Positions 13,083-39,806 of a stretch of 42,334 nucleotides of DNA are shown here, piece by piece. Below the pieces are notes generated by a model that did not search any database, was not told the origin of the DNA, and worked only from the letters and a program-made list of their open reading frames with translations. Position 1 is the stretch's first letter. Every line of letters begins with the position of its first letter. The stretch is from Carboxylicivirga sediminis (lineage in GTDB: Bacteria; Bacteroidota; Bacteroidia; Bacteroidales; Marinilabiliaceae). The position numbers were made by a program, and so were the translations under genes. The stretch covers positions 1 through 42,334 of the forward strand of contig NZ_JAGTAR010000046.1 of assembly GCF_018156225.1 (NCBI RefSeq), written 5' to 3'.

Positions 13083-15413
13083 TTAATTAAAGCTGATAAC
13101 AAAATGATTACTTTCATCGTTAGAGCTGGTGCCCAACCAGATATCAAACTCACCCGGTTCGGTTGTCCAGTTCAAGTTACGATCCCTGAAGCTGAGCAAT
13201 GCTTCATCAATGGTAAACTCAATGGTTTTTGTTTCTCCTTTCCGCAATGCTACCTTCCTGAAGTCTTTAAGTTCTTTTACAGGCCTTGTAATGGATGCTA
13301 CCCTGTCGCGGATATACAATTGCACGATTTCGGTCCCATCATAGTCTCCGCTATTCACTATATCCGCTTTTAATGTAATGGCTTCCCCTTGTTCAAAGCT
13401 TTCGGCATTGAGCATGATATTGGTGTATTCAAAGGTGGTATAACTTAAACCATGACCAAATGGAAAAAGTGGCGTATTATCCACATCAATATAGGACGAT
13501 TTATAGTCGGATGGTGCCTTGGCATCAAAGGGACGCCCCGTGTTTTTGGCGTTGTAATAGATGGGAATCTGCCCCACGTTACGCGGGAAAGTCATTACCA
13601 GTTTGGCCGATGGACAAACCGCACCCGACAGCACATCAGCCACTGCATGGCCAGCCATTAAACCCGGATACCAGGCTTCTACAATGGCATCCAGGTTCTC
13701 TGCTTCCCATGACAAGTCTAAAGGTCGGCCATTAAACAGCACCAATACAACGGGCTTACCAGTTTGCTTCAAGGCTTTAAGCAGCTCGCGCTGATTGCCT
13801 GGTAAAGTGATGTCGGTACGACAAGCTGCTTCTCCCGACCAGTGAAAGTTCTCGCCCATGGCCACCAGAATAATATCACTGGCTTTTGCCACCTTAATGG
13901 CTTCAGCAAATCCCCTCTCATCAGGTTGATTGTCTTTAGACGCCTTCATGGTGGAACGATCGAGTAATGGTAAATCTGTGCCTTTTGCGTAGGTAAACTG
14001 TACCCCGGTGCCCTTGTATTTAGCCTCCAGTCCCTCTCGTAATGTCACTGACCGACTTCTGTTACCTTTGATAGCCCATTCGCCATTTAAGCTTGCACGC
14101 TCATCTACAAATGGTCCTATCAGCGCCACTTTTAAGGCTTGATCTGTTGAAAGAGGTAGTAGCTTACCTTCATTTTTAAGCAATACGATGGATTGTTGGG
14201 CAGCCTGACGAGCCAATGATTGGTTGGCTTCACTCATCACTACCTGTTTTTGTCTTTCTGCATCAAAATAACGATAAGGATCATCGAACAGCCCCAGCAG
14301 GAACTTCATCTCCAGAATGCGTGACACAGCAACATCAATCTGTTTTTCACTCACTTTGCCTTCTTCCACTAATTCTTTAAGATGCGTTACAAAGGCTTCG
14401 CTAATCATGTCCATATCAATACCCGCATCCAGACTTAACTGGGCGCCATGCTTTAAGTCCCTGGCAAAACCATGATGCATCAGTTCCATAATGGCCGTAT
14501 AATCAGTTACTACCATGCCTTTAAATCCCCATGCCTCTCTTAAAATATCCTTATATAAATAGTTATTGGCTGTACAGGGCACGCCATTTAAGTCGTTAAA
14601 CGCTGTCATAAAAGAGGTCACACCCTCATCGATGGCTGCCTCAAATGGTGGAAAATAGGTATCATACAAGCTTCGTTCAGACACATCCACTGAGTGATAA
14701 TCTCGACCAGCCTGGGCAGCCCCATAGCCAACAAAGTGTTTGGCGCATGCCATCATGGTATTGGGCTTCGATAGATCGCGGTAATCACTGATGCCTTGAA
14801 AACCTCTCACCCGGGCACGTGCCACTGCCGACGCCAAAAACACATCTTCACCGGCACCTTCCATCACGCGGCCCCAACGCGGATCACGCGCAATATCAAT
14901 CATGGGAGCAAAATTCCAGGCTACGCCGCTGGCCGTGGCCTCTTCGGCTGCTGCACGTGCTGTTTCTTCCATTAGTTCCAGGTCCCACGAGCAGGCTTCG
15001 GCCAGGGGAATCGGAAAAGTTGTCTCCAGGCCATGAATGACATCAGCCGCAAAGAGCATCGGAATCTTCAGGCGCGAATATTTAAGATTTTGCTCCTGCA
15101 GCATGCGCAGGTGATCGGCTCCAAACACATTGAATGTACTGCCAATCATACCTCTTTTGAGGTATTCGCCCGACTGGTTATCACTGACTGCACCTGTTGA
15201 GGCAAAATTCCCCGAATACTGGTTCATCTGGCCTATTTTCTCATCCAGGGTCATCAGACTCAATACCGAGTCCACCTTTTGCTCAATGATAGGGTCGCCG
15301 CTATAGCTTTGCCATATTACTTGTTTCTTTGGCTGCTGGCAGCTGACCACTATTAAACAGCCCACTATTAGACCAGTATATTTAAATACGGTCATTCGCT
15401 TTTTGTTTTTCAT
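13083..15413 (-). CDS. GH3 beta-glucosidase, BglX-like, lipoprotein
   Basis: 776 residues. The SPII signal has its lipobox VVSC at Cys25, so the enzyme is membrane-anchored. GH3 N-terminal barrel about 45-370: DPRWGRVMEGAGEDVFL (substrate loop), KHFVGYGAAQAGRDYHSVD, and the nucleophile Asp304 in KGMVVTDYTA. The alpha/beta sandwich (about 405-620) carries GENFHWSGEAACR with Glu528 as acid/base candidate. A C-terminal FnIII-like domain follows (NTPLFPFGHGLSYTTFEY, then NSGDYDGTEIVQLYIRD). It removes glucose from non-reducing ends of beta-glucooligosaccharides. Next to GH144-like genes, beta-1,2 (sophorose-type) specificity is possible but inferred. Last gene of the PUL, 47 bp after a second GH3 gene. 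Confidence 0.94.
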   Translation of the reverse strand: MKNKKRMTVFKYTGLIVGCLIVVSCQQPKKQVIWQSYSGDPIIEQKVDSVLSLMTLDEKIGQMNQYSGNFASTGAVSDNQSGEYLKRGMIGSTFNVFGADHLRMLQEQNLKYSRLKIPMLFAADVIHGLETTFPIPLAEACSWDLELMEETARAAAEEATASGVAWNFAPMIDIARDPRWGRVMEGAGEDVFLASAVARARVRGFQGISDYRDLSKPNTMMACAKHFVGYGAAQAGRDYHSVDVSERSLYDTYFPPFEAAIDEGVTSFMTAFNDLNGVPCTANNYLYKDILREAWGFKGMVVTDYTAIMELMHHGFARDLKHGAQLSLDAGIDMDMISEAFVTHLKELVEEGKVSEKQIDVAVSRILEMKFLLGLFDDPYRYFDAERQKQVVMSEANQSLARQAAQQSIVLLKNEGKLLPLSTDQALKVALIGPFVDERASLNGEWAIKGNRSRSVTLREGLEAKYKGTGVQFTYAKGTDLPLLDRSTMKASKDNQPDERGFAEAIKVAKASDIILVAMGENFHWSGEAACRTDITLPGNQRELLKALKQTGKPVVLVLFNGRPLDLSWEAENLDAIVEAWYPGLMAGHAVADVLSGAVCPSAKLVMTFPRNVGQIPIYYNAKNTGRPFDAKAPSDYKSSYIDVDNTPLFPFGHGLSYTTFEYTNIMLNAESFEQGEAITLKADIVNSGDYDGTEIVQLYIRDRVASITRPVKELKDFRKVALRKGETKTIEFTIDEALLSFRDRNLNWTTEPGEFDIWLGTSSNDESNHFVISFN

Positions 15414-15460
15414 TTTGTCTTTTGGTTTATGTTGTATTATTTAAATGCTTCAGTTAATAT

Positions 15461-17779
15461 TTATTCCAAAGAAAAAGAGACGTCGAGCCATTTCTCTGAA
15501 TGTGGCCCGACCATAATCTTAAAAGTTCCAGGCTCCCAAACATATTGGTTACTGACATTATAAAACATCAGATCATCAACGCACAGATGAAAAGTAACAG
15601 ATTTGCTTTCACCTGGTTGCAAGCTTATTTTTTTAAACTTTTTGAGTTCTTTTAGTGGTCTGACCACCGAGCTGACTTCATCCTGAATGTATAGTTGTAC
15701 AATTTCATCAGCAGCATATTTACCTGTATTTTTGACCTGTACCCTGACCTCTAACCTCTCATCGGCTGATATAACTCTCTTCGATAATGTCAGGTTTGAA
15801 TAGGCAAACGATGTATAGCTAAGGCCGTAACCAAAAGGATAAAGTGGCGAATTATTCACTGCTAAATACCCATTTTTTGGTTTGAACAGTGCATTGTAAT
15901 ATTGTGGCAAATGGCCGACACTGCGCGGAAAAGTAACGGTTAATTTGCCCGAGGGAACAACGTCGCCTGCTAATACATTAGCTACGGCTTCCCCGGTTTT
16001 TTCGCCCAGGTACCAACATTCCAATAGGGCATCTGCTGACTCATCAATTGCATTGATGGTTAGAGGCCGGCCATTAATTAAGCATACGACCACCGGCTTA
16101 CCTGTTGCTTTGACAGCCTCAAACAATTGATTTTGATTGCCATATAAATCTAGGGAGCTGCGGTATCCCAGAAATTCACCACAGGTCATCGCCGTACCAC
16201 CTAAAGCCAATATTACCATATCAGCCTCTTGGGTGACTTTAACAGCCTCTTTAATACGTTCTATATCTTCAGTTTGATCAACACTATCAACTTTAAAATC
16301 CAACCAATAACCATGATTTTGGTGGATTTTACACCCCTCGGCATACAGTATCTCAAGCTCCTTTCCAAGTTTGTTTTTTAAACCATCATAAATGGAAATA
16401 CCTCTTGCTTCATCACGATGCGAATAGCCACCATAACGACAGACTTTGGCATTAGGGCCAATAACTGCCAAGGTTTTAATTTTAGCCTTATCCAAAGGCA
16501 ATGTTTCATGTTCATTTTTGAGCAAAACAATTGATTTTTCAGCTGCTTTCAGGGCTAATGCCTGCTGCTCTTTTGTATGACAAACCTGGGATGCCCGATC
16601 TTCATTGGCATAAGGATGTTCAAAGAGTCCAAGTTTAAATTTCATCCTAAGAACCCTTGCAACAGCGGTATCTAAAGCCACTGCCATTTCACGGTTGCTC
16701 TCACATAGGTTGGTAAGGTTTCGAAAACAATTGGGACTAGCCAATTCGAGGTCAACACCAGCCAGTAGTGCTTTAGCGGCCGCCTCCTCCGTTGATGCGG
16801 CCAAGCGATGATCATTTTTAATACCATCAATACCACCATAATCCGACACCACATAGCCTTTAAAATGCCACTCTTCGCGCAATATTTCATTCAACAACCA
16901 ATGATTAGCGTGGCTAGGCACTCCATCAACTGCATGATAGCCCGGCATAACACTCAAAGCACCTGCCTCTTCAACGGCTACTTTAAAAGGAGGAAGAATC
17001 ACCTCTCTCATGGCTCTCTCACCATAATTGACCGTTCCTTTATTTGTGGCACGCTCCGATACCCCATAGCCGGCAAAATGTTTGATTGTGGCAATAACAT
17101 GCGCACTATCAATGCCATTTCTCTCAACAATTTTTTTCGTTCCCTGCAGTCCTTCAACAATAGCCTTTGCGAAGCAAGCTATCAGGTATGGATCCTCGCC
17201 ATAGGATTCTTCAATACGCCCCCAACGCGGATCGCGACAAACATCAAGCATCGGTGTATTCACCTGGTGACTGCCCCTGCTGCGTGTTTCTAAAGCAACC
17301 TGTTCGAAAATATCCTTTACCAGTTCAGGCTCCCAGCTACAAGATAAACCCAGTGCCTGCGGATAAACAGTTGAATTTCTTGCCCATAAGCCATGCAATG
17401 CCTCTTCATGAAAAATAGTGGGAATACCTAATCGACCATTCTCCATTACATATCTCTGTATTTCATTGGAGATTCTGGCAGTTTGACTGGCATCCAAATC
17501 AAAGGCCACGCAAGGTTTACCTAATTGTCCCAAACCCTTTTGAATTAATGACTGATGAGAGGCGTGCGGGTGAAAGTGTCCCAAAGAATCCATATCATTT
17601 TTCCTTAAAACACTTGCTGATATTTGCAGCAATTTTTCTTCTAAGGTCATGCGATTAATCAAATCGGCAATTCGTTCCTCAACAGGTCTGGTAGCATCTT
17701 TATATAAAGGTTTATCTTCAGCTTTCAACCTGAAGTTACAAGCTATTAATAACAACGCGTATAATAAGATTTCTTTCAT
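15461..17779 (-). CDS. GH3 beta-glucosidase / beta-xylosidase-like, exported
   Basis: 772 residues. The signal is ambiguous: LLLIAC (Cys14) is a possible lipobox, although RLKA (about residue 20) could be an SPI site. GH3 layout: the barrel holds DPRWGRIEESYGEDPYLIACF and KHFAGYGVSERATNKGTVNYGERAMREV, with the nucleophile Asp313 in KGYVVSDYGGIDG. The sandwich domain follows (LLKNEHETLPLDK, then GGTAMTCGEFLGYRSSLDLYGNQ) and a C-terminal FnIII domain (YPFGYGLSYTSFAYSNL). The SERATNKG insert and the divergent acid/base region differ from the downstream GH3 protein, so the two probably split the linkage or oligomer-length range. 20 bp downstream of a sulfatase gene in the same operon. Confidence 0.92.
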   Translation of the reverse strand: MKEILLYALLLIACNFRLKAEDKPLYKDATRPVEERIADLINRMTLEEKLLQISASVLRKNDMDSLGHFHPHASHQSLIQKGLGQLGKPCVAFDLDASQTARISNEIQRYVMENGRLGIPTIFHEEALHGLWARNSTVYPQALGLSCSWEPELVKDIFEQVALETRSRGSHQVNTPMLDVCRDPRWGRIEESYGEDPYLIACFAKAIVEGLQGTKKIVERNGIDSAHVIATIKHFAGYGVSERATNKGTVNYGERAMREVILPPFKVAVEEAGALSVMPGYHAVDGVPSHANHWLLNEILREEWHFKGYVVSDYGGIDGIKNDHRLAASTEEAAAKALLAGVDLELASPNCFRNLTNLCESNREMAVALDTAVARVLRMKFKLGLFEHPYANEDRASQVCHTKEQQALALKAAEKSIVLLKNEHETLPLDKAKIKTLAVIGPNAKVCRYGGYSHRDEARGISIYDGLKNKLGKELEILYAEGCKIHQNHGYWLDFKVDSVDQTEDIERIKEAVKVTQEADMVILALGGTAMTCGEFLGYRSSLDLYGNQNQLFEAVKATGKPVVVCLINGRPLTINAIDESADALLECWYLGEKTGEAVANVLAGDVVPSGKLTVTFPRSVGHLPQYYNALFKPKNGYLAVNNSPLYPFGYGLSYTSFAYSNLTLSKRVISADERLEVRVQVKNTGKYAADEIVQLYIQDEVSSVVRPLKELKKFKKISLQPGESKSVTFHLCVDDLMFYNVSNQYVWEPGTFKIMVGPHSEKWLDVSFSLE

Positions 17780-17799
17780 AATCGTATCGGTTTATTGCT

Positions 17800-19416
17800 T
17801 TACTTCTGTTTTGTTTGATATACCTCAGTCGTTCTTGGTTCCATGGTTGTATTATCATGATCATTATAGGTAATGAACTTCTGAAGTAACCGCGATACGA
17901 GTGCCTGGTATTCAGCCTTGGCAATAAGATTTACTTCCTGTGCCAGGTCGTTTCCCAGGTGATATAATTCGGTCGCTTCATTATATCGGTTGACCAACAG
18001 CACCCAGTTGCCTTCCCTGATGGCTCCGTCATAGGCATATCCGGCCTGGTAAATAATAAACGGATGAAGTGGAGTCTCACTCTCTTTTGTCTTAAGCATT
18101 ATGGGGAGTAATGAAGTGCAATCCATGGCCTGGTCTTCCTCCATGGGCTGATTGGTAATCTCGTACATGGTGGCTACCCAATCTTGGGTCAGCACCGCTT
18201 CATTGGCAACAAAGCCTGATTTGATTTGCTCAGGCCAATTAATGATGAATGGCACCCGGTGGCCACCTTCGTATACCGATGCTTTATACCCTCGCAAAGG
18301 TCCGTTATTATCATGCTCAGGGTTGCCAAAATCACATACTCCGGGCCATAAAGCGCCATTATCACTTGTAAAGAATACAATGGTATTATCGTATAAGCCC
18401 TCCTGCTTCAATTTGTCAATCAGTTGGCCTACCTGTACATCCAACTCATATACAAAATCGCCGGTAGCGCCGCCTGTCATGCCGTTCACCTGCTCATTCA
18501 ATTCAGTATCATTCCCGTCAAAATCATTGGGAGGCGTGTGCGGCACATGAATGGCCTGCGATGCAAAATAGATCAGGAAGGTTTTTGCCTCATCACGCTG
18601 CTTATTCAACAGAATATGCTCATCAATAAACGCTTTGGCTTTGTTAATCATCATGATACCAGTCTGGCTGGAATTATAGTCTACGTCACCTATTCCTGCG
18701 TGTTTTTGATGCTCCACAATCTCTGATGTGCCATTTTTCATTTCATAGCGACCATTGCTCCATAAACGTGTTGAGCTGTTATCCGCCGGTTTAGTTGGGT
18801 CAAAAGGTGCGAAATGTCCATTTTCGAAAAAGGCAAATGGTTCGTGCTGTATCCCGCTGGGCAACGAATAAGAATAGTCAAAGCCAAACTCATTGATGGA
18901 GTTGTGTACTCCCTGTGCAAAGTCCATTTGACAGATATTATTTTGCTCCCTGATAAGTTGACCTTCCTTATCCCTGATGTCGCCACCCAGGTGTGATTTG
19001 CCAAAGAAAGCGGTTCGGTAGCCGGCCTTTTGCAATATTTCAGCGACTGTCACCTTTCTGCCTGCCCTGGTATGTTGATAGGGATCTGAAAAGATGGATG
19101 GACTATTGGTATTCCAGGCACCACCTGCCCTATACGATCGATAGGGGTAGCTGCCGGTCAGCATGCTGAAACGCGAAGGTGCGCAAAGGGCAGCTGGTGA
19201 ATGGGCATCGGTGAAGCGAATACCGTTAGCCGCTAATTCGTCAAGGCGGGGCGTCGGAATTTTTCCGCCATAGCATCCCAAATCACCATAACCAATGTCA
19301 TCGGCCAGAATAAACACCACATTGGGCAATGCAGGTTTATTCGTTTGAGGCTGGCAGGCACCCATTAAAAGCCCCAGAACTAACCACATTAAACCCTTAT
19401 TATTCAGCGATTGCAT
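17800..19416 (-). CDS. Sulfatase (S1 family), lipoprotein
   Basis: 538 residues from the ATG at 19416. The frame extends upstream into the preceding gene, and an ATG at 19422 is the alternative. The chosen start gives an SPII signal with lipobox MGAC (Cys21). PNVVFILADDIGYGDLG holds the metal-binding Asp pair. CAPSR at 78-82 is the C-x-P-S-R core in which Cys78 becomes formylglycine. The second half has GKSHLGGD, FFTSDNGALWPG and ASVYEGGHRVPFIINWP, standard for the fold. It hydrolyses a sulfate ester at the cell envelope. The start overlaps the end of the upstream GH144-like gene by about 17 bp, suggesting translational coupling. No formylglycine-generating gene is in the window. Confidence 0.93.
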   Translation of the reverse strand: MQSLNNKGLMWLVLGLLMGACQPQTNKPALPNVVFILADDIGYGDLGCYGGKIPTPRLDELAANGIRFTDAHSPAALCAPSRFSMLTGSYPYRSYRAGGAWNTNSPSIFSDPYQHTRAGRKVTVAEILQKAGYRTAFFGKSHLGGDIRDKEGQLIREQNNICQMDFAQGVHNSINEFGFDYSYSLPSGIQHEPFAFFENGHFAPFDPTKPADNSSTRLWSNGRYEMKNGTSEIVEHQKHAGIGDVDYNSSQTGIMMINKAKAFIDEHILLNKQRDEAKTFLIYFASQAIHVPHTPPNDFDGNDTELNEQVNGMTGGATGDFVYELDVQVGQLIDKLKQEGLYDNTIVFFTSDNGALWPGVCDFGNPEHDNNGPLRGYKASVYEGGHRVPFIINWPEQIKSGFVANEAVLTQDWVATMYEITNQPMEEDQAMDCTSLLPIMLKTKESETPLHPFIIYQAGYAYDGAIREGNWVLLVNRYNEATELYHLGNDLAQEVNLIAKAEYQALVSRLLQKFITYNDHDNTTMEPRTTEVYQTKQK

Positions 19417-21586
19417 GCTCATTATTAAGTTTTTGAATTTCATATAATGCATTGGTAATCTCATCGTTCTGCATAAAGAGGTTCCACAACAGGCCACTGC
19501 GGTAGTTTTCAATCATCACCGCGACAGGTGCCTGATTAAGTCCCATATAAATCCTTGCACACCAGTTTTCCTGCAGATTCACTGCGTCTTTAAAGCCATA
19601 CTCACCCCACAGGTAACGCCCATGCTCCCTGTACATGTTTTTAAGGGCAGCCATCGATTGCTCTGGCGTATAGGGAAACGATGCCAACGCACCCGTTGGT
19701 GCCAGTGTGCCATTATCATTATCAACATTCGGTTCAATGGCTCTATAGCCCCATGGTCCGTCGCTGGCTGTTAAACCCCAAAAATCAGGATTAAATCCCC
19801 TGTGATTCTTCGGATTTTCGGAGCAATAGCGCCAATTGATTAAGGCAATGTTGCGGTTGTTCTCAAAGTAGTTGGTATAACTATCATCCACCAAATGCGG
19901 ATTGAGACCGAGGAAAGAGTAATGAATAAAAAACAATGGTCCGCCGTTGGATACCCCAACTGGTAATTGAATGCCATGGTAATAGTTGCCATTCGTATAA
20001 TTGGCCCCATCATCTGTTTGGCCCCAGTCCTTGCGGTATTCGGCCGCTTTTTGAGACTGACTGGCCCATCCTTTGTAATACATACTGGCTGGCACCGGAT
20101 GAGTTGGTGAAGCAATGGCCAACAGGTAGGTTATCAGGGTTTCGTTCCATCCTATGAGCTGATGATCGATTAACCATCCTTTATCAGGCGACCAGTGCCA
20201 GGTTAAGAAATCGCTCTTCTTATGCTGATCATACCAATCCCACTCTACGGCTTCCCACAGCTGGATGATTATCTCTCGAATTTCGTTTTCCCGGGCATTT
20301 TTTCCATCGAAATAGCTTCGAGCAGTGAGCAAGCCCTGAAACAAGAAGGATGTTTCCACCAAATCGCCGCCATTATCGCGCTCACCAAAAAACGGTTCTA
20401 CATGTCCGCTTGGGCCATCTATAAAGTGTGATACAGCGCCATGAAACGTATCACAAGCTTTCAGGAAATGACATATCTTAAGCAGCCGTTCAACTGCCTG
20501 CTCGCGCGATATAAAACCACGCTCGGCACCAACGATAATGGCCATGATGCCAAAGCCGGAAGCGCCGGTGGCAATCATGTCTTTCCGCCCGGGAATATTC
20601 TCTAAAGCCAAACCACTGTTGGCTTCAGCACCATCCCAATAATAGCGAAAGGCAGCTTCCTGCACCATATCCAACAGTTCTTCATCAGAAAAGGAACGGG
20701 TTGATATGCTGACTGTATTTGAATCATCCGTTTCGTTATAGTTTTCGTCCAGTAAGGTTATTTTGTAGGAATAGGTTTTATCACTCTCGCCAGTGAAATC
20801 GGTATAGATGCCATACCAGGGCACCTGAATCCCGACTGGCTTAAACCCGGAATTATCGTCAGAACGATAAACCTTGACATATTTGGCACCAACTACAGCA
20901 GTTGCATCCCAATAAATATCAACGTGTCGTTCAAATGCCTTAGCTGTCATCTCCGGAGTGCTTGCTGCCTTATTGGACTGAACAGGCGTTATCAACTCCA
21001 GTTGGTCAATATATGCTTGTCCCTCTCCCTCCTGATGACTATTTGAGAATATAATACAATTGGGAAGCTGCTTAATAGGGCCAAAGTCTGATAGAGGAAT
21101 TTTTACCCAAGTCCAGCCTTCATTATCTTCCCCGTTTAGATAATTATCAATCGCTACCTTTGCGGAGCGAGTTTCAGCATGCAAAGTACCGGTTCTTCGC
21201 TCTTTATCCTGAAAACATAATTGAACCAGCGGTAGTAGCCCGGCATCAACGTCACCTTTAAAGAGCCAGAAAGACAAATGAGTAGCCTCTTTGAAATAAT
21301 CCTGCCCACGTAACTTTTCAAACTCCACTGCAGCCTCCCAGAAGCCATTACCGTTACTATAGTTCAGCTCTAATGAGTTAGGTGGCGTAAAATAATGCGT
21401 TTCAGATACTGGTAATTTATGCCTGATGTTCCTAATATAACTGCCTTCCTCATAGCTTACATGCGAAAAGAAGTAAGGCCCCGACATATTACTGTTTTCA
21501 AAAAACCTGTAATCATAAAGCCGTTCCTGGCCTGTTATGCCTATGTGAATTACTGTGATGAGTAGTAGTGATATTGCGTGCTTCAT
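19400..21586 (-). CDS. GH144-like (Glycoamylase fold) enzyme with N-terminal binding module and FnIII
   Basis: 728 residues, SPI signal (about 1-20), no lipobox. Order: beta-rich module resembling a carbohydrate-binding domain (about 25-200, ending AYIDQLELIT), an FnIII-like domain (about 218-295), then the (alpha/alpha)6 Glycoamylase domain (PF10091-type, about 300-718). Catalytic candidates: Asp404, Asp408 and Glu411 in ERDNGGDLVETS, and Glu482 in GWNETLITYLLAIASPTHP. Their spacing closely matches that reported for the Chitinophaga endo-beta-1,2-glucanase founding GH144. Closing motif: APVAVMIENYRSGLLWNLFM. Endo-action on a beta-1,2-glucan-like chain is the best guess. Its stop is overlapped by the following sulfatase start. 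Confidence 0.88.
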   Translation of the reverse strand: MKHAISLLLITVIHIGITGQERLYDYRFFENSNMSGPYFFSHVSYEEGSYIRNIRHKLPVSETHYFTPPNSLELNYSNGNGFWEAAVEFEKLRGQDYFKEATHLSFWLFKGDVDAGLLPLVQLCFQDKERRTGTLHAETRSAKVAIDNYLNGEDNEGWTWVKIPLSDFGPIKQLPNCIIFSNSHQEGEGQAYIDQLELITPVQSNKAASTPEMTAKAFERHVDIYWDATAVVGAKYVKVYRSDDNSGFKPVGIQVPWYGIYTDFTGESDKTYSYKITLLDENYNETDDSNTVSISTRSFSDEELLDMVQEAAFRYYWDGAEANSGLALENIPGRKDMIATGASGFGIMAIIVGAERGFISREQAVERLLKICHFLKACDTFHGAVSHFIDGPSGHVEPFFGERDNGGDLVETSFLFQGLLTARSYFDGKNARENEIREIIIQLWEAVEWDWYDQHKKSDFLTWHWSPDKGWLIDHQLIGWNETLITYLLAIASPTHPVPASMYYKGWASQSQKAAEYRKDWGQTDDGANYTNGNYYHGIQLPVGVSNGGPLFFIHYSFLGLNPHLVDDSYTNYFENNRNIALINWRYCSENPKNHRGFNPDFWGLTASDGPWGYRAIEPNVDNDNGTLAPTGALASFPYTPEQSMAALKNMYREHGRYLWGEYGFKDAVNLQENWCARIYMGLNQAPVAVMIENYRSGLLWNLFMQNDEITNALYEIQKLNNEHAIAE

Positions 21587-30725: not shown

Positions 30726-30750
30726 AATTGTTTTTAGCAATAGGATGATT

Positions 30751-30776
30751 GGAAAGCAGATGAACATCTGCTTTCC
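30751..30776 (-). other. Hairpin between the SusCD/LamG cassette and the enzyme genes
   Basis: GGAAAGCAGATG (30751-30762) with CATCTGCTTTCC (30765-30776): 12 pairs, only two unpaired bases at the tip. It sits in the gap after the LamG lipoprotein gene, where PULs often reduce expression downstream of the susCD genes. No T-run, so partial attenuation or RNA stability is the likely role. Confidence 0.7.
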
Positions 30777-30843: not shown

Positions 30844-31923
30844 TTATTCCTCAGCGGCTATAATGGCCTTGATTTCATCCTGGCTAAGAGCCTTTTGGAA
30901 TATGCGTAATTCATCGTACTGGCTTAAGTCTTCGGCATGCCCCCAACCACTAAAATACGGTCCACCTGAAGCGATATATAGGTCTTCGCAGTTATCCAGA
31001 CTCATTGGACTAGTCAAAGCACCCTCAGAAACCACTTCGCCATTGATATAAACGGCTGCCGATGATTCGGAGATGGTAATGGCAACATGAACCCAGTCGG
31101 TTGTTTGCGGATTAACTGTAGCTGCAGCTCCTCCATCAAACCATTGGTCTCCCGAGCCATTGCCTACATTCAGCTTGATAATCTGTGCATCATCTCCTCC
31201 TTCGCGGAATAGTCTAAATCCTGCTACGCGATTATTATTACTGCCCGATGGGCTGGCTGATAAAATACCTGAACGGCCCTGCTGTGCAATATTGTACCAA
31301 AAGGTGGCACTCATTTCGGTACCTGACAATACATCAGCAACTGGGAATGAAAGGCTGGCGCCTTCAGCTCCCTGGTAAGCAGCTCCAATAACACCATTGG
31401 CTTCGAAACCAGGAAAACCTTCAACTTTTGCACCTGTTACTGAAGCATGATCAAGGAAGTGATTCTGGAAACTCATGTAGAAAGTCTCACCATATAATGG
31501 TTCAAAGTTGCCCATCTCCACCACACTAAAGCTGATGACATCTGATAAGGTACTCTTACCTGTTTTATCAACACCTTCAATTTGCATGGTATAGGTTCCA
31601 TCTTCCAGGTTTAAAGCATGACCTTTTAGCGGGGCATAGCGTCTGTAATCTCTAAAATTGATTACATTTTCTAACACCTCGTCATTAATAGTAAAGCTCA
31701 CAGAAGCCAGCTCTATGTCGTCCACTACCTCCAACATAATGGGCACACCACTTCCGGCTGCCACAATAAGCTGATCCCCATCCTGTGGTGAGCTAATTGC
31801 TATGGTTGGAGCTAATTCATCACTCCCCGGTTCAACGGGAGAAATTGAATCAATACCCTCGGTACATGCCTGCAGGCTTAATATAATCCCAAGGCTATAT
31901 AGAATTGTTTTAAGTGTTTTCAT
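30844..31923 (-). CDS. LamG-domain surface glycan-binding lipoprotein (SusE/F position)
   Basis: 359 residues, SPII lipobox LQAC (Cys20). An N-terminal bacterial Ig-like domain (about 38-130: TIAISSPQDGDQL, then GTYTMQIEGVDKTGKS) is followed by a concanavalin-like LamG domain (about 145-355: FYMSFQNHFLDH, MSATFWYNI, GFRLFREGG, DWVHVAITISESSAAVYINGEVV, YDELRIFQKALSQDEI). No catalytic motif is seen. Third gene of the cassette, 18 bp after susD, the place where SusE/SusF-type glycan-binding proteins are found, so a glycan-capture role at the outer surface is likely. Confidence 0.85.
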   Translation of the reverse strand: MKTLKTILYSLGIILSLQACTEGIDSISPVEPGSDELAPTIAISSPQDGDQLIVAAGSGVPIMLEVVDDIELASVSFTINDEVLENVINFRDYRRYAPLKGHALNLEDGTYTMQIEGVDKTGKSTLSDVISFSVVEMGNFEPLYGETFYMSFQNHFLDHASVTGAKVEGFPGFEANGVIGAAYQGAEGASLSFPVADVLSGTEMSATFWYNIAQQGRSGILSASPSGSNNNRVAGFRLFREGGDDAQIIKLNVGNGSGDQWFDGGAAATVNPQTTDWVHVAITISESSAAVYINGEVVSEGALTSPMSLDNCEDLYIASGGPYFSGWGHAEDLSQYDELRIFQKALSQDEIKAIIAAEE

Positions 31924-31941: not shown

Positions 31942-33510
31942 TTAGTTATTGGCATAAGCCTTTAGGTTTGGTAACTGATCAAGCTGAGCCAGAGGATATG
32001 GTAAAAAGACCTTATCAGCATTAAACTGACGCACCCCATCACTATCGTCGTAGCGATCGCTATAGTTTAACTCATCGTATTGCTCATATCGTACCATATC
32101 GTAGAATCGTGCTCCTAATTCCATTGCCAGCTCTGCAAATTTTTCATCCAAAACCTCTTGTAACCCAACTCCAGTGATGCTTCCTAATCCAGCCCTATTC
32201 CGTACTTTATTCACCGCTTCATCGGCCGACATAGCCGAACTTGTAGCGCCTTGTACCATTGCTTCAGCGTGTATCAGCAATATTTCAGCATAACGAATTA
32301 GCGGATAGTTTTTACCATTACCATAATCATTTCGACCTGGTGTCAATTGATCAGATGGCAAATAGTGTTTACCACTGGCAAAGTTGGCTCGTGCATAATC
32401 ATTAACGATATCTCCCGATGGAGTTGTGTTACTTATCCATGCAGGTAGGGTACTATAAGCAGGATCTGCCTTTAAGGTATTAATACCTTTATTGGTGAAT
32501 AGTACACTGGTTTGAAGACGTGTATCATCACCTCTATCCAACATAAACTTAATCCACTTTAGAGTTGGCTCCCAAAATCCCCATCCACTCTTGGCACCTT
32601 CAACTTTTGGTGACCAGTTCTGTGAACCATAAAAGGCATATAAATATGTCTCTTGAGGTCCTGTACTTTGATTATAATCTGAGAATTGCAATTCAAAGAG
32701 GTTCTCAGAGCATAATTCGCCATCCTTCTTAAATAACTCGTAATAATCAGAATAAAGGGCAAATTTGTTAGACTTGATAATTTGTGAAGTAGCATCGGCC
32801 ACTTTCTGATATTCTTTCAGCTCCAGGTTTACCATCGCTTTTAATGCCAGCGCTGTATATTTTGTTACACCGCCTGGCACATCAGTGCGATCCGCTGGAT
32901 GCATATCCGGTAAATTGGGTATTGCTTCATCCATCAAGTCCGAAATATATTGCATCACTTCTGCATAGGTCGATACATCAGTCACCAACATATCTGACGG
33001 ATCTGAAGTTTCAGGAATTAGAATATCACCCCAAGTACGAGCTAAATTACGTAGTAACCAACCTTTTATTACCATTGTTTCAGCAATATACTGATCGGCA
33101 TTAGGATTACCTGAATTTTCTCTGTACAGTTCTATTTGCTCTTCAGCATCAAACATGCGGAATATTGTGGTATACTCCAGGCCCCATAATGAGTTATACA
33201 TCCAATAGCCCTGGTCGTAGACGTAGCGATCGGTCATAAAGAATGGTTGAGCATCACCATAGCCGCCAGCATTTACATCATCTCCCCTAACAGACTGTAA
33301 AGGAATACCTTCCCATCCTCTTCTCATATAGAATTGTGAGTATGCACCATAAAGGGGCAATATCATATCTTTTGACATAGTGTAATCCACTTCTTCGGTA
33401 GGAACACGGTTTTCAAATGGCTCTTCCAGGTTATCATGACAGGCTGCTATTGCCATAACCACAATTACCATAGCCATAAGCTTTATAATATGTTTATTAA
33501 TGAACTTCAT
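31942..33510 (-). CDS. susD: SusD/RagB-family outer-membrane lipoprotein
   Basis: 522 residues, SPII lipobox IAAC (Cys24). The N-terminal part (DYTMSKDMILPLYGAYSQFY...WGLEYTTIFRMFDAEEQIELYRENSGNPNADQYIAETMVIKGWLLRNLARTWGDI) is the TPR-like SusD fold. The C-terminal half has YPLIRYAEILLIHAEAMVQG and VRNRAGLGS, then RFYDMVRYEQ, the RagB/SusD signature region. It binds the target glycan on the outer surface and caps the SusC channel. Directly after susC with a 19-bp gap. The symbol denotes the family. Confidence 0.96.
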   Translation of the reverse strand: MKFINKHIIKLMAMVIVVMAIAACHDNLEEPFENRVPTEEVDYTMSKDMILPLYGAYSQFYMRRGWEGIPLQSVRGDDVNAGGYGDAQPFFMTDRYVYDQGYWMYNSLWGLEYTTIFRMFDAEEQIELYRENSGNPNADQYIAETMVIKGWLLRNLARTWGDILIPETSDPSDMLVTDVSTYAEVMQYISDLMDEAIPNLPDMHPADRTDVPGGVTKYTALALKAMVNLELKEYQKVADATSQIIKSNKFALYSDYYELFKKDGELCSENLFELQFSDYNQSTGPQETYLYAFYGSQNWSPKVEGAKSGWGFWEPTLKWIKFMLDRGDDTRLQTSVLFTNKGINTLKADPAYSTLPAWISNTTPSGDIVNDYARANFASGKHYLPSDQLTPGRNDYGNGKNYPLIRYAEILLIHAEAMVQGATSSAMSADEAVNKVRNRAGLGSITGVGLQEVLDEKFAELAMELGARFYDMVRYEQYDELNYSDRYDDSDGVRQFNADKVFLPYPLAQLDQLPNLKAYANN

Positions 33511-33529
33511 GTCTAATCTTTTTTAACGA

Positions 33530-36500
33530 TTAAAATTTAAGATTTAGTCCAACTGTGTAAATAGCAGGAACAGGGTGTACCTGGTTATCAATGCCATTAT
33601 TTACTTCAGGGCTGAAACCATTGTAACTGAATACGGTTAATGGGCGTTCTGCCGTAAATGAGATACGTGCATCGGGCATTTCTACTCCGAAAAGAGACTT
33701 ATTTGAAAGCGTGTAAGCCAACTGAACATTCTGTATTCTGAAGAAAGCTCCATCTTCCACCAGGTAATCACTCATCTTCTGGTTCCACGATTTTCTTAAA
33801 CCTTTAGATGATGGATATTCATTGGATGTTCCTTCGCCGTGCCAACGGTTAGTCGCTAAATCGGCATCCCAGTTCGTGTCATTGGTCCAGATAACTTCAC
33901 CTCGCTTGCGGTTAAGAATCTTATTACCCGACTGCCCCATTATGTTGGTTGTAAGTTGTAGGTTTTTGTATTTAATACCCAAGTTGGCACCATACATAAG
34001 CGTTGGGAAATATGAACCCAATATCACACGGTCGTTATCATCAATAACGCCATATCCTTCTTCTCCTTCTTTCTGTTGGTCTTTGTATTTAAAATCACCT
34101 GGTTCCAGGCCATTAGCTATCGCAATAGGATCGGCATCAATCTCGGCCTGATTTTGGTAAACTCCTGCTACTTCCCATCCATAAAATGCCAGAAGAGGCT
34201 CACCTACCATAGTGCGCTGACGAAATTCTGCTGAGCCACCATCAATATAATCCTGACCATAAAGCTCACGTACTTCGTTCTTATTGGTTGACAATGTAGC
34301 CCCAACAATATAGCTCAGGTCACTGGTTATATTATCACTCCAATTTACAGCCAATTCGAATCCTGAGTTACGAATAACACCAGCACTCTTTAATCCACCA
34401 CCCATTATAACAGGCGTATTGACATAAATAGCAGCATCTTTAGTATCTCTGGTATAATAATCAGCTTCAATACCTAAACGATTACCAAGCATATTGGCAC
34501 TTAATCCTACATTTGTTTCTTCGGTGACTTCCCAACGCAGGATATTGATATTATTAGTGGTAACTGTACCTGCAGCTCTCTGATCACCCAATGCTACATA
34601 ATTAATATAAGTTGCAGCCGAACCGTCAGAACGAGGAATCTTGTCATTTCCTAACTGTCCCCAACCAAAGCGTAGTTTCAGGAAATCGATATAATCATTG
34701 TTTTTAAGGAAATTTTCTTCTGATAGTACCCAACCAGCACCTACGGCCGGGAAATACGCCCAGGTATTCTCAAACTTATTACTGCCATCAGCACGCATGG
34801 TGGCATAGAGCATGTATTTGCCATTAAAATTATAAGACAAACGACTAAAGTATGACTGGCCATAGTATTTAGCACCACCATCACCCGTTAAATGAGAATC
34901 ATTATTCTGACCTGCATCGATGTACCAGTACTGCTCTTTCTCAGCAGGCACATCTTCAGCTGATCCCCATAGGTTATGGCTAGTTTCCTGACGGTATGAA
35001 GAACCAGCCATCACTGAAATATTGTGAGCTCCAAAGCTATCCGAATAAGTCAAAACATTATCCCATATCTTATTTGAATAGGTACTGTTCTGCTTTCTTA
35101 CTTTTACAAAATCCGCCCTGTATTCAACTGATTCATCTTCACCTTCGGTATAAAACTCTCTAAACCAGTTATCGTTTATATAGAAGGGGAAATCAACATT
35201 GCGCTGATTTAAATCCGTATAAGCATGATTATAGCTGGTTTTAAACGTTAGCTTTGAAGGAATCAGATCTATTTGCGCATAGAAGTTTGCATTAACCTTC
35301 ATAATATCCAGCTGCCTATCGTTATAAAGCATGCTTGGAAACGGATTTTGATGTCCGCGATAGCCAAGCAACTGGGCATCAGCAAAATTATCTGGAGTGG
35401 AAACACCTAAATAATCCTGATCATATACCGGCAAAATTGGTACTGCCAGGTAAGCTTGTTTCCAGGCATCATTATTAGGATCTTTTTTGGTTGCATTACT
35501 AAAAACCACATTACCACCATACGATAACCACTGATTGGCTTTAGCATCAATTTTAGCTGTCAGGTTAAAACGCTCGTAATAGTTTTCCACATCCATAATA
35601 CCATCTTGCTTAAAGTAGCTGGTTCCTAGGGCATATTTTACATTCTCAGTTCCACCCCTGGCACTTAAACTATGATTTTGAATAGGTGCCGGCCTTAAGA
35701 TTTCATCGTACCAGTCGGTATTGACATCAGGCACATTAGGGTTTACACGGCTACGACCATACTTCTGCATGGCGTTCAAAACGAAATTGTAGTCGACATC
35801 TGAACCTGATTCCAATGCCATATTAGTGAATTGCTCTGCATTGGCCATTTTAAGCACATTCTGGGCCACCTGGTAACCATAGTAACCATCGTACTCAACT
35901 TCAGTTTTCCCTTTACTTCCAGATTTGGTTTCGATAAGGATTACACCATTGGCGGCACGTACACCATAAATAGCAGCAGCTGATGCATCTTTAAGAACTG
36001 AAACGGACGCTATTTCTGAGATATTCAGAAAATCGATGTTGTCATAGAACATGCCATCTACAACATATAATGGATTTTGTCCTGCCGATTGGAAGGAACC
36101 AATACCCCTCACCCTTACTGTTGGCTGATTGCCTGGCTGTCCGGAGCTTACTACCTGAAGACCGCCAACCTTACCTTGTAAAGCCTGCATAGCTGTAGCA
36201 GCTGGAGTTTTGGCTAATTCTTCAGAAGCAACCGTTGTAATAGCCGAAGTTAAGTCCTTTACTTTCTGTGTACCATACCCTACCACAACCACTTCATCTA
36301 CTAACTCAACCGATTCCTGCAATACGATATTAAGTGTGGTTTGGGTTCCAACAACCACTTCCTGAGATTCATAGCCAATGAAGCTGAATTCGATAATATT
36401 ATCAGGGGTTGCATTAACTACGTAGTTACCGTCAAAATCGGTAATTGTACCTGTTGTTGTTCCTTTTATTATTACAGAAACACCCGGTATTCCTATATTA

Positions 36501-36598
36501 TCAGTACCCGTCACTTTTCCGGCAACCTTAACAGGATTTTGCGCCATCATGAGTGTTGATACGAACAATAGAAGAATCGAATAAAAGATTTTTTTCAT
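33530..36598 (-). CDS. susC: SusC/RagA-family TonB-dependent transporter
   Basis: 1022 residues. Signal 1-19; carboxypeptidase-D regulatory-like domain about 23-100 (VAGKVTGTDNIGIPGVSVIIKGTTTGTITDFDGNY). The TonB-box region is EVVVVGYGTQ. The plug is about 115-225 (ALQGKVGGLQVVSSGQPGNQPTVRVRGIGSF, then SVLKDASAAAIYGVRAANGVILIETKSG), followed by a 22-strand barrel ending in the terminal aromatic motif VGLNLKF. It imports glycan oligomers across the outer membrane using TonB energy, paired with SusD. First gene of the PUL. A TTTC-N20-TACTTTTG promoter-like pair lies about 30-60 bp upstream. Divergent from the regulator gene across 376 bp. Confidence 0.97.
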   Translation of the reverse strand: MKKIFYSILLLFVSTLMMAQNPVKVAGKVTGTDNIGIPGVSVIIKGTTTGTITDFDGNYVVNATPDNIIEFSFIGYESQEVVVGTQTTLNIVLQESVELVDEVVVVGYGTQKVKDLTSAITTVASEELAKTPAATAMQALQGKVGGLQVVSSGQPGNQPTVRVRGIGSFQSAGQNPLYVVDGMFYDNIDFLNISEIASVSVLKDASAAAIYGVRAANGVILIETKSGSKGKTEVEYDGYYGYQVAQNVLKMANAEQFTNMALESGSDVDYNFVLNAMQKYGRSRVNPNVPDVNTDWYDEILRPAPIQNHSLSARGGTENVKYALGTSYFKQDGIMDVENYYERFNLTAKIDAKANQWLSYGGNVVFSNATKKDPNNDAWKQAYLAVPILPVYDQDYLGVSTPDNFADAQLLGYRGHQNPFPSMLYNDRQLDIMKVNANFYAQIDLIPSKLTFKTSYNHAYTDLNQRNVDFPFYINDNWFREFYTEGEDESVEYRADFVKVRKQNSTYSNKIWDNVLTYSDSFGAHNISVMAGSSYRQETSHNLWGSAEDVPAEKEQYWYIDAGQNNDSHLTGDGGAKYYGQSYFSRLSYNFNGKYMLYATMRADGSNKFENTWAYFPAVGAGWVLSEENFLKNNDYIDFLKLRFGWGQLGNDKIPRSDGSAATYINYVALGDQRAAGTVTTNNINILRWEVTEETNVGLSANMLGNRLGIEADYYTRDTKDAAIYVNTPVIMGGGLKSAGVIRNSGFELAVNWSDNITSDLSYIVGATLSTNKNEVRELYGQDYIDGGSAEFRQRTMVGEPLLAFYGWEVAGVYQNQAEIDADPIAIANGLEPGDFKYKDQQKEGEEGYGVIDDNDRVILGSYFPTLMYGANLGIKYKNLQLTTNIMGQSGNKILNRKRGEVIWTNDTNWDADLATNRWHGEGTSNEYPSSKGLRKSWNQKMSDYLVEDGAFFRIQNVQLAYTLSNKSLFGVEMPDARISFTAERPLTVFSYNGFSPEVNNGIDNQVHPVPAIYTVGLNLKF

Positions 36599-36625
36599 GT
36601 CTGTGTTTTTTTAAGTTCGCTTAGC

Positions 36626-36657
36626 CAAAAGTATTGAGCCAATCACAGGTCATGAAA
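36626..36657 (-). promoter_or_regulatory. Candidate susC promoter (TTTC-N20-TACTTTTG)
   Basis: On the minus strand TACTTTTG (36633-36626) fits the Bacteroidota -7 box TAnnTTTG exactly. TTTC (36657-36654) is one base off the -33 TTTG, at a 20-nt distance. The implied leader is short, about 20 nt. Confidence 0.45.
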
Positions 36658-36891
36658 AAAATCCCCACACTATAAGCTCTCTTTGTTAAAAAGTCTTAAT
36701 TCATGCTTACACAATTACCTCACCCTCTCATTGTATGCATTCTCTAAAGCCTGATTACCTAATTATTACAAATAGAAAAATCTCACATTTAGTATTTTGC
36801 AAAACCGAATATTTAGGTCACTCAATGAGCTATTTTTATGTATTTACCAGCCAAATTCCGGTCAAAATCGCCTCACGAATCAAGAATTACA

Positions 36892-36911
36892 AAATATTGT
36901 TAACAACATTT
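36892..36911. promoter_or_regulatory. Operator-like 20-bp dyad upstream of the regulator gene
   Basis: AAATATTGTTAACAACATTT: a perfect TTGTTAACAA core with one mismatched pair in the flanks. It lies about 64 bp upstream of the regulator start and 294 bp from susC. Candidate binding site for the dimeric LuxR-type HTH; not demonstrated. Confidence 0.35.
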
Positions 36912-36989
36912 AATGTCTTCAAAAGAGAATAATTTATTTTTACTGATGTTATATCATCAAATCATAATCAGTTAATGTCATATCAGCTC

Positions 36990-39806
36990 ATGAAGCTTTT
37001 TTATATCACCCTGTTCATTCTTCTGCTTAATGGCATAATTGACCATTCAGTACTTTCAGCACAATCATTAATAAGTTTTACTAAAGATGATTATCAGGCA
37101 GCTAGTCAAAACTGGTCTATTGGATGCGCACCAACAGGCTATATTTACTTTGGCAATAGCAGTGGTTTGCTCGAATTTGACGGGGTGAGCTGGCAGTTAT
37201 ATCCTTCTCCCAACGCTTCTATTATAAGAGCTGTAGCTGTTGATAACAGAAGAGTGTATACAGGAGGCTATCGTGAGTTGGGTTTTTGGGAAAGAACACA
37301 AAATAGTCAACTGCAATATTTTTCTCTTACAGACAGTGTGAAATCGCAGTTTGGCATTAATGAGGAATTCTGGAGTATTTTTAAAAGCCAGGAGCAAATC
37401 ATCTTTCACTCATTTGCCGGCATCTATATCTACGAAAATGGATCATTTACAGTATTAAAAAACGGCGGTTTCTTTAATTTTGCTACTTTGGTTGACGGTA
37501 CTGTGTTTGTTGCTATTCATAACGATGGTATCTATCGAACAGAAAACAATCAGCTTATCCCGGTAACCAACAGCGATTTCTTAAAGGAAAAGCATGTGCG
37601 TTTTATTGCCAAAGGACACTTACCCAATACTTACTATATTGGCACCGAATCAGCAGGAATGTACATCCTAAACACAACTACCGATGAATTTAAACCAATA
37701 GCCAATAATCTTCAATCGTTTTTTATCACCAATAAAATCAATCATGGTGCTGTAACTGCCGAAGGGGACCTTATTATTGGCACCATACTGGATGGTGTCA
37801 TTGGCTTTTCGCCCACTGGCAAGGTGAAGTTTCAGTATAACAATAAGAATGGTTTACAAAGTAATACTGTATTAGGAATAAGTTTCGACCAGTACAATAA
37901 TATGTGGCTGGCACTGGATGCCGGTATCGAATATATTTCGTTGACGCCCGGAAACAACTACCGAATGTATATGGAAAAAGAAATTGGAGCCATTTACAGC
38001 GGCGCATTGTTTAATAATCAGTTGTACCTGGGCACAAATCAAGGCTTGTATGTTAAATCGTGGCAGGATACGGATGGTAGTTTTAAGCTGGTTGACGGGA
38101 CTCAAGGGCAAGTGTGGGACTGTGAAATCATCGACAATCATCTGTTTATCGGTCATAATAAGGGTACATTCATTAGCAGCAATGAGTTTTCTCTGCTTTC
38201 TGACTATTCGGGTGCTTATAATATCAAACGACATCCGCGGCATCCGGATGTACTGCTTCAAGGTACTTACAATGACCTAATCGTCTACCGTGAAACGCAG
38301 AATGGCTGGAAGATGTCCAATACCATCAGTGGCTTTAATAACTTAACACGTTTCATAGAAGTGGATCACCTGGGCAATCTGTGGGCCAGCCATTTCTACA
38401 GCGGCCTGTATAAAATTCGTTTAAATGATGATTTTGATAATGTGGAATCAGTCATTAAATACGATAAGTTTGAAGATGGACCAGAACAGCTTGGTCACTT
38501 AAATGTATTTAAAATAGAAAATCAGATCGTTATAACTACCGGACATAAGCTATATACATATGACGATCTTAAGAACACCATTGTTCCGTATAACTTGCTT
38601 AATGACGCTCTGGGGGATTTTAAAGCAGCCAAGCGCATTGTACCCGGTCTTAATCACCACTACTGGTTTATTAGCGAAAAAGGCATCGCCTACTTTAAAA
38701 TTTATGCCAACGAGGTATCCAGGATCAAGTTTTACCCCAAGCAATTATTTGAGAATCATTTAATTCCTGATCATGAAAACATTGTGCAGTTCAATGATAC
38801 TACGGCAATGGTTTGCCTGGAAAATGGTTATATGCTGCTCAACTTAAACGGCAACAATGAAGGTATTGATATTGCCAGTCACGAAATAACACTCAGGCAA
38901 GTAACTGCAACTAATCGAAAAGGTAAGCCATTTCCTTTGAGCATTGAAGACCAATCTATCAACTTGCCACATAGTTTAAATAATCTGATACTTCGTTATT
39001 CCTTCCCTTTATTGAATGGTGAAACGGTTAAATTTCAATATAAAATACCAGGTCTGTATGACCAATGGTCGGCTCTGTCAAACAAGCCCACTATTGAATT
39101 GAGTAGAATACCCTCTGGCACATATACCATTGAAGTTAAAGCGGTTAACAATTGGCTCAAGTCATCCAAAACACACCTATTGAAACTAATAGTGCATCCA
39201 CCGTGGTACCAAACGACGTATGCCATTGCCGGCTATTTATTATTAATGGTTGGCCTGATGTTGGGATTAAAGTATATAACCAGTCGTAAAATTAAACTAA
39301 AGGAAAAGCGGAAACGTGAGGAGAAAGAGAAAGAACTGATTCAACTAAAAAATGAGAAACTCAGTTCTGAATTATCCTATAAAAGCCAGAAACTGGCGAG
39401 TTCGGCTATGAGCATAATTAAGAAAAATGAATTCTTGTTATCACTAAAAGCTAAGATAAAGAAACACAAAGAATATCTTGGTAATCGCTATCCAGACAAG
39501 TATTACCAAGAAGTTATTGATAAAATTGATGATAACATCAGTGGTCAGGATGACTGGCAATTGTTTGAAGCAAATTTTGAGCAAGCGCACGAGGCTTTTC
39601 TGAAAACCATGAAGAAAAAACATCCGGAACTAACCCCTAGTGATTTGCGCCTCTGCGCTTACTTAAGAATCAATCTGACATCAAAAGATATCGCGCCATT
39701 GCTTGGTATTACTGTCAGAGGTGTTGAAAACCACAGGTATCGCCTGCGTAAGAAGCTTGGGTTAACTGCGGAAGATAATTTGACCGACTATATATTAAAT
39801 GCGTAA
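36990..39806 (+). CDS. Membrane-spanning propeller / Y_Y_Y / LuxR-HTH transcription regulator
   Basis: 938 residues from the ATG at 36990. An ATG at 36975 would add five residues; the later one gives a cleaner signal (MKLFYITLFILLLNG). Numbering here is from 36975. The periplasmic sensor has many propeller blades (about 30-650: GYIYFGNSSGLLEFDGVSW, NMWLALDAGIEYI, LWASHFYSGLYKI), then a Y_Y_Y domain (about 682-745), one TM helix (about 748-767), a charged coiled coil (about 772-835) and a LuxR-type HTH (about 885-943: LTSKDIAPLLGITVRGVENHRYRLRKKLG). There is no histidine kinase or receiver domain, so it is a one-component sensor resembling SusR-type regulators. It probably senses a degradation product and activates the divergent PUL. 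Confidence 0.93.
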   Translation: MKLFYITLFILLLNGIIDHSVLSAQSLISFTKDDYQAASQNWSIGCAPTGYIYFGNSSGLLEFDGVSWQLYPSPNASIIRAVAVDNRRVYTGGYRELGFWERTQNSQLQYFSLTDSVKSQFGINEEFWSIFKSQEQIIFHSFAGIYIYENGSFTVLKNGGFFNFATLVDGTVFVAIHNDGIYRTENNQLIPVTNSDFLKEKHVRFIAKGHLPNTYYIGTESAGMYILNTTTDEFKPIANNLQSFFITNKINHGAVTAEGDLIIGTILDGVIGFSPTGKVKFQYNNKNGLQSNTVLGISFDQYNNMWLALDAGIEYISLTPGNNYRMYMEKEIGAIYSGALFNNQLYLGTNQGLYVKSWQDTDGSFKLVDGTQGQVWDCEIIDNHLFIGHNKGTFISSNEFSLLSDYSGAYNIKRHPRHPDVLLQGTYNDLIVYRETQNGWKMSNTISGFNNLTRFIEVDHLGNLWASHFYSGLYKIRLNDDFDNVESVIKYDKFEDGPEQLGHLNVFKIENQIVITTGHKLYTYDDLKNTIVPYNLLNDALGDFKAAKRIVPGLNHHYWFISEKGIAYFKIYANEVSRIKFYPKQLFENHLIPDHENIVQFNDTTAMVCLENGYMLLNLNGNNEGIDIASHEITLRQVTATNRKGKPFPLSIEDQSINLPHSLNNLILRYSFPLLNGETVKFQYKIPGLYDQWSALSNKPTIELSRIPSGTYTIEVKAVNNWLKSSKTHLLKLIVHPPWYQTTYAIAGYLLLMVGLMLGLKYITSRKIKLKEKRKREEKEKELIQLKNEKLSSELSYKSQKLASSAMSIIKKNEFLLSLKAKIKKHKEYLGNRYPDKYYQEVIDKIDDNISGQDDWQLFEANFEQAHEAFLKTMKKKHPELTPSDLRLCAYLRINLTSKDIAPLLGITVRGVENHRYRLRKKLGLTAEDNLTDYILNA

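Follow-up and report, generated by a model that had tools for sequence, protein, structure and literature searches.

Polysaccharide utilization loci (PULs) that join GH144 enzymes to sulfatases are already in print. The accessible text of Lapebie et al. (2019; PMC6499787) describes marine GH144 PULs with an added sulfatase and proposes an unknown, sulfate-decorated counterpart of the terrestrial polysaccharide as their substrate. Wolter et al. (2021; PMC8072126), in the sections available, report a Maribacter locus with one GH3, two GH144, susCD and sulfatases, together with GH144 genes in every Maribacter and Zobellia compared there. Here we analyse a PUL of Carboxylicivirga sediminis carried on a stretch of 42,334 nucleotides (positions 1 to 42,334 of contig NZ_JAGTAR010000046.1; the whole stretch is called the window below), in which GH144 and sulfatase genes likewise occur in one PUL, the combination that marks the published marine loci (PMC6499787). 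With a probability of roughly two in three, we read this 27.55-kb PUL as a system for a sulfated β-1,2-glucan, in which a plain system acquired a desulfation cassette and the polymer would be degraded by stepwise desulfation and hydrolysis. The PUL is real and coherent, and what is new in it is the large cassette, with a predicted exo-type GH144 and sulfatases outside S1_11; the kind of locus had already been proposed. The initial annotation, made from the sequence alone, knew of no described PUL with this mix, a view that the accessible text of the two papers (PMC6499787, PMC8072126) overturns.

The locus consists of 12 genes on the minus strand (13083-36598) and a divergent regulator on the plus strand (36975-39806), as judged from open reading frames (ORFs) and Pfam. 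Three congener loci (L104, L105 and L114) have the order SusC-SusD-LamG-GH144c-GH144b-GH3a, with GH144b adjoining GH3a and with neither a sulfatase nor GH144a; the divergent regulator is present in L105 and L114, where the stretch reaches that far. In the window these core genes are a SusC TonB-dependent transporter (33530-36598) and SusD (31942-33510), both by Pfam, a LamG-domain lipoprotein that is likely a surface glycan-binding protein (30844-31923), GH144c (28758-30767), GH144b (27394-28731) and GH3a (13083-15413). Between GH144b and GH3a, by contrast with the congener loci, lies a cassette of SulfD (25932-27320), SulfC (23127-25928), SulfB (21625-22950), GH144a (19400-21586), SulfA (17800-19512) and GH3b (15461-17779), all on the minus strand. 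Four or five sulfatases and GH144a occupy the same place in genomes G011 and G005 and in Labilibacter sediminis (L005). The fuller cassettes are those of L111/L112, L106/L107 and L005, that of G005 having five sulfatases, and the minimal one, in G001 (L103), is GH144a-SulfA alone. SulfD comes directly after GH144b in four of the five cassette genomes (window, L111, L107 and L005). On this gene order, the handling of sulfate appears to be a module added to an otherwise plain β-1,2-glucan PUL, and the insertion of the cassette inside a colinear core bears out the earlier suggestion that sulfate removal belongs to the same unit.

The locus as a whole is an island. Congener G010 lacks the entire PUL with its regulator (12340-39889, 27.55 kb) between dnaX and LysO: DNA matching window positions 8478-12339 ends there 91 bp before DNA matching 39890-40548. 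In G012 the dnaX and META/LysO genes likewise lie close together. At another site (L110), G010 does have a GH144 PUL, one that includes an S1_11 sulfatase. A comparison of 400 bp with 300 bp at the two island ends found no exact direct repeats of at least 10 bp. Between the left end of the island and GH3a, a stretch of about 740 bp (12340-13082) has no listed ORF of at least 120 amino acids and holds a run of C.

Within the operon, intergenic gaps on the minus strand measure 3 to 176 bp, except where SulfA and GH144a overlap, and the tight one-strand spacing first noticed is thus real. The inventory given there (SusC, SusD, LamG lipoprotein, three GH144-like enzymes, four sulfatases, two GH3 enzymes and a divergent regulator) is recovered by Pfam, with best E-values for the nine enzymes of 6.5e-51 to 9.6e-77, which exclude a chance match. 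A SusC/SusD pair, co-directional enzymes and a regulator, the hallmarks of a Bacteroidota PUL, are all present; the regulator is a sensor with Y_Y_Y and LuxR-type helix-turn-helix domains, although its GerE match lies under the Pfam cut-off.

The backbone of the substrate is indicated by the GH144 enzymes. The genome has three PF10091 matches, all within the PUL (GH144a, GH144b and GH144c), and these pass the family cut-off and fall among the GH144 rows of a tree that includes characterized members. Searches of the PDB matched GH144b to CpSGL (5gzh) at E 2e-170 and GH144a to BDI_3064 (5z06) at E 7e-249, with residues 21-724 of 728 aligned; GH144a matched CpSGL at E 2e-120. Residues D135, D139, E142, E211, F268 and Y330 (CpSGL numbering), whose catalytic or clan-defining roles we take from the accessible text of PMC12102758, are conserved in all three copies. 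GH144 identity, proposed at first sight from retained residues, is therefore supported by these matches, by the conserved sites and by the phylogeny, and a β-1,2-glucan backbone is likely.

The three enzymes are non-equivalent, judging from their homology. GH144b, a lipoprotein by eye, is of the CpSGL-like endo-β-1,2-glucanase type. GH144c, also a lipoprotein by eye, is a third GH144 type with a Big_5 domain. GH144a (728 amino acids) would be the exo type: it groups with BDI_3064 in a ten-row clade, and position D400 of CpSGL is Asn in it, a replacement found in 10 of the 198 tree rows, which are exactly the rows of the BDI_3064 clade. BDI_3064 is reportedly an exo-type enzyme on β-1,2-glucooligosaccharides. 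Domain trimming left 198 of the 200 rows in the tree, which was built without duplicate or short loci (L004, L006-L009, L084-L102, L001-L003 and L128) and ORFs under 380 amino acids. Two very divergent PF10091-like proteins (L106:14838-16166 and L127:5090) pair on long branches, with S or N at D135, a gap or S at D139 and D at E142; the L106 gene sits within a sulfatase cassette, and the two are possibly a new family.

The pairing of GH144 with GH3 enzymes suggested at the outset holds. GH3a directly follows GH144b in the sulfatase-free congeners. GH3a, a lipoprotein by eye, is β-glucosidase-like: its best PDB match is 3u48, named only JMB19063, and the next are chains named as β-glucosidases, for example 9urf and 5xxl. 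GH3b, closest in the PDB to β-xylosidases (7zb3 and 5z87), is an accessory gene outside the conserved core and was seen at this position only in the window and in G011.

GH144a and SulfA travel together. In the subclade of the window's GH144a (support 99*), SulfA adjoins in four of five members and lies one gene further in L005, with SulfC between. Among the other rows of the BDI_3064 clade, L061, L055 and L116 are without SulfA, with a different sulfatase in L116; the sequence of L038 stops directly behind GH144a, and BDI_3064 was seen as a protein only, so that the presence of SulfA cannot be judged in these two. Across 60 genomes searched, four (C. sediminis included) have a SulfA of at least 72% identity; these are the cassette genomes of the genus, and the gene is each time beside GH144a. 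The next best match has 45% identity. In all, SulfA was seen only together with GH144a, in five loci.

The sulfatases themselves are of several types. All four match PF00884 and keep the C-x-P-S-R motif noticed at first (CAPSR, CSPSR, CGPSR and CGPSR). Genome-wide, 74 PF00884 matches pass the cut-off in 5.8 Mb, about 0.13 per 10 kb, and the PUL has four in 9.5 kb, a ratio that is a rough guide only because sulfatases cluster in PULs. The closest solved relatives of SulfA belong to S1_15, a subfamily described in the accessible text of PMC10154612 and PMC6994673 as strictly galacto-specific; in BT3333, D173 and R174 recognize the axial O4 and H225 recognizes O3. Q-H replaces this D-R dyad in SulfA as well as in the four orthologues (5/5), and the position of the His is I, K, V or a gap; the Asp-Arg/His galacto triad is missing. 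Distant SulfA homologues have related GIQN or GIQD motifs, and others have LDI or further forms; because of this variation, SulfA is probably a member of an adjacent subfamily. Judged by these residues, the argument for a galacto-configured substrate falls away, without glucose being proven.

SulfB and SulfD are closest in the PDB to S1_19 carrageenan sulfatases, for SulfD to 6prm, an exo-4S κ-carrageenan sulfatase of S1_19B, and SulfC groups with both in the tree. The 13-row group of these three types with 6prm and 6bia has a support of 100/97, but its long branches were flagged. None of the four window sulfatases has the S1_11 D-R-H triad or falls in the clade of 7p24. The sulfatase tree comprised 68 rows, six of them PDB references, and was built without L001-L003, L128, L103, L105, L108, L111, L112, L114, L084-L102 and ORFs under 400 amino acids.

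SulfC has an fn3 domain, two C-terminal stretches that look similar by eye (about residues 460-600 and 695-840) and a weak match to a type IX secretion system (T9SS) sorting tail (Por_Secre_tail, slightly under the Pfam cut-off); it is possibly secreted or surface-bound, and the repeated stretches are possibly glycan-binding domains. Predicted structures of SulfA (five-row alignment) and of the C-terminal half of SulfC (single sequence) had mean predicted local distance difference test scores of 49 and 39, too poor for fold comparison. The ORF called for SulfA begins with TTG and shares 113 bp with the GH144a gene; the true start, judged by eye, lies downstream of this TTG, between 19443 and 19389. 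The genome has no match over the cut-off to the radical-SAM sulfatase maturase TIGR03942, with one weak match, and five FGE-type PF03781 matches, so that sulfatase maturation is probably by FGE. Elsewhere in the genome, one sulfatase match (C83:13586-14707) has an in-frame TAG.

A different sulfatase has joined other GH144 PULs. Of at least 588 relatives of GH144b, we kept the loci of the best 80. An S1_11 sulfatase gene occurs in 36 of these, 32 by motif and 4 by tree (L024, L032, L058 and L069 miss the strict S1_11 motif but lie inside the S1_11 clade), in every case on the strand of GH144b; that of L009 lies beyond opposite-strand ORFs and may be outside the PUL. The others comprise 3 loci with the cassette, 2 with another sulfatase-like gene, 26 with none and 13 that end early. 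The D-R-H triad is conserved in all 40 rows of the S1_11 clade, an outlier (L036) having D-R-P. According to the accessible text of PMC10154612 and PMC6994673, S1_11 includes 6-sulfatases of gluco-configured sugar, and the triad binds O4 and O3 of 6-sulfated N-acetylglucosamine (GlcNAc). A representative of the marine S1_11 genes matched GlcNAc-6-sulfatases (7p24, E 5e-156; 5g2v, E 1e-153) ahead of an L-galactose-6-sulfatase (7lha, E 1e-98).

Two side observations concern these neighbourhoods. The sulfatase of the Mariniflexile fucanivorans GH144 PUL (L031:18631) is separated by a tree distance close to zero from PDB entry 9S03, which is deposited as 'Putative sulfatase'; a search of the accessible literature found no paper describing this entry. 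Sulfatase-like genes beside GH144-like genes at L015:10260 and L121:4877 have no recognizable C-x-P-S-R and form a far outgroup in the tree.

In our reading of the window, a plain system (regulator, SusC/D, LamG binder, GH144c, GH144b and GH3a) would have acquired the cassette SulfD-SulfC-SulfB-GH144a-SulfA-GH3b. At the cell surface, the LamG protein, SusD and the lipoprotein GH144c would bind and cut the chain, and SulfC, with its T9SS-like tail, could remove sulfate outside the cell. SusC/D would then import sulfated oligosaccharides; in the periplasm, SulfB and SulfD may take off further sulfates while GH144b makes internal cuts. Working from the non-reducing end, GH144a would detach short units while SulfA takes away the sulfates that block it there, and glucose would be set free by GH3a. 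Position O6 of glucose probably bears at least one of the sulfates. Localization, order of action, sulfate positions and the polymer itself are what we infer here; gene content, homology, residues, synteny, and presence and absence are observed. What survives of the initial annotation's sulfated β-1,2-glucan is its backbone, favoured by homology, and sulfate removal within the unit, favoured by the insertion into the core; the idea itself had already been published, Lapebie et al. (2019) having proposed this substrate for marine PULs with GH144 and a sulfatase.

More generally, the sea may hold an undescribed, multiply sulfated β-1,2-glucan, with a widespread 6-O-sulfate handled by S1_11 sulfatases or SulfA and a heavier form needing SulfB, SulfC and SulfD, to which Bacteroidota would have adapted at least twice with unrelated sulfatases; we hold this broader picture to be close to an even call, leaning slightly towards doubt. 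We found in the literature no test of the published idea and no chemical description of a sulfated β-1,2-glucan, within a coverage that left most subscription papers and preprints outside. A further paper that came up for sulfated glucan, PMC5802718, was set aside, since its sole link to the subject is a red-alga study among its references.

The origin of such a polymer bears on a variant of the sulfated β-1,2-glucan reading, in which the polymer would come from bacteria, not algae, as an envelope glycan of the kind known as osmoregulated periplasmic glucans, with sulfate in place of succinate or phosphoglycerol. The known β-1,2-glucans of this type are bacterial and carry succinate, phosphoglycerol and phosphoethanolamine (PMC11842490, accessible text, in which no word begins with 'sulf'). 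Among ten proteins scanned from related PULs (L024, L025, L103, L104, L106, L110 and L116) are carboxylesterases and Exo_endo_phos and calcineurin-like phosphoesterases, as expected for such substituents, besides GH43/F5-8C and DUF2961 proteins. Because the loci carry these esterases and the known glucans carry substituents, GH144 PULs may have slots for substituent-stripping enzymes, sulfate being one more substituent. Against this stands the lack of any sulfated natural β-1,2-glucan in the literature found, although no producer was looked for. A bacterial source is conceivable, yet we would sooner bet against it than for it.

Several observations weigh against a sulfated β-1,2-glucan of either origin. 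The 80 GH144b loci, as the best of at least 588, are a sample of nearest kin, and because 26 of them have no sulfatase in reach, sulfate is no constant feature. Nor does the missing D-R dyad alone demonstrate gluco specificity. The neighbours of three GIQ-type SulfA homologues (L155, L156 and L157; ten proteins, Pfam) include no GH144 gene, and one of these neighbourhoods has a GH2 and an α-L-fucosidase-family protein; since GIQ-type homologues occur in other clusters, that sulfatase type is not tied to β-1,2-glucan. According to the accessible text of PMC10154612, aquatic S1_11 members apply the same triad to L-galactose, so that the triad alone is no proof of glucose. The nearest subfamily to SulfB, SulfC and SulfD is S1_19, and those of its solved members that turned up in our comparisons take the 4-sulfate off carrageenan galactose; GH3b is closest to a xylosidase. 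The last three points favour a PUL for some other sulfated polysaccharide, such as a galactan or a xylose-containing algal glycan with only some β-1,2-glucosyl linkages, to which GH144 specificity would have drifted. We consider this unlikely: the catalytic and clan-defining GH144 residues are conserved, the core is colinear with sulfatase-free PULs, SulfA is without the galacto dyad, and a Pfam scan of the locus found no galactan-, fucan- or ulvan-specific hydrolase family, nor any GH16, GH2, GH167, GH110, polysaccharide lyase or fucosidase family.

Less probable still is a mixed diet, with plain β-1,2-glucan as the main substrate and sulfatases for another glycan co-carried in the operon. 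With 74 sulfatases over the cut-off the genome has them as common material, and cassette loci range from one to five sulfatases. The cassette, however, is flanked on both sides by core genes of the same strand, and in four of the five cassette genomes SulfD is the gene that follows GH144b; SulfA keeps to GH144a in the five loci where it was seen, and other marine GH144 PULs have taken up sulfatases of the unrelated S1_11 type. Sulfatases as mere unrelated neighbours and a carrageenan PUL were considered and thought less likely, the latter as Pfam found no carrageenase family in the locus.

If a sulfated β-1,2-glucan is indeed the substrate, the sea would contain a still unknown relative of a bacterial glucan, carrying sulfate and common enough for several lineages to have evolved separate tools for it. 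The 2019 prediction becomes testable at the bench: there is a minimal locus with one sulfatase (G001), sister loci devoid of sulfatases can serve as controls, an empty site is available, and the 9S03 structure of a sulfatase from such a PUL is already deposited.

With the plain congener PULs the locus shares the order of SusC, SusD, LamG, GH144c, GH144b and GH3a, and it differs from them in having sulfatases and GH144a. GH144a is a full-length homologue of BDI_3064, with the same Asn, but belongs to a five-member subclade in which each member has a SulfA in the same operon. SulfA is closest to the S1_15 galactose/N-acetylgalactosamine-6-sulfatases (BT3333, PDB 6s20; λ-carrageenan S1_15A/B), yet has Q-H for D173-R174 and no match for H225. 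The S1_11 6-sulfatases (7p24, 5g2v; 9S03) represent the type found in other marine GH144 PULs, whereas none occurs in the PUL of the window. The published marine loci (PMC6499787, PMC8072126), as far as their accessible text describes them, share GH144 and a sulfatase in one PUL and, in the Maribacter case, GH3 and susCD; the substrate proposed by Lapebie et al. (2019), a sulfated counterpart of β-1,2-glucan, is the same. No sulfatase subfamily is named in that text. Where a flavobacterial GH144 locus of our set carries a sulfatase, it is mostly a single one of S1_11 type placed after GH3; the operon of the window instead contains four sulfatases outside S1_11, together with a GH144 of the BDI_3064 type and a second GH3.

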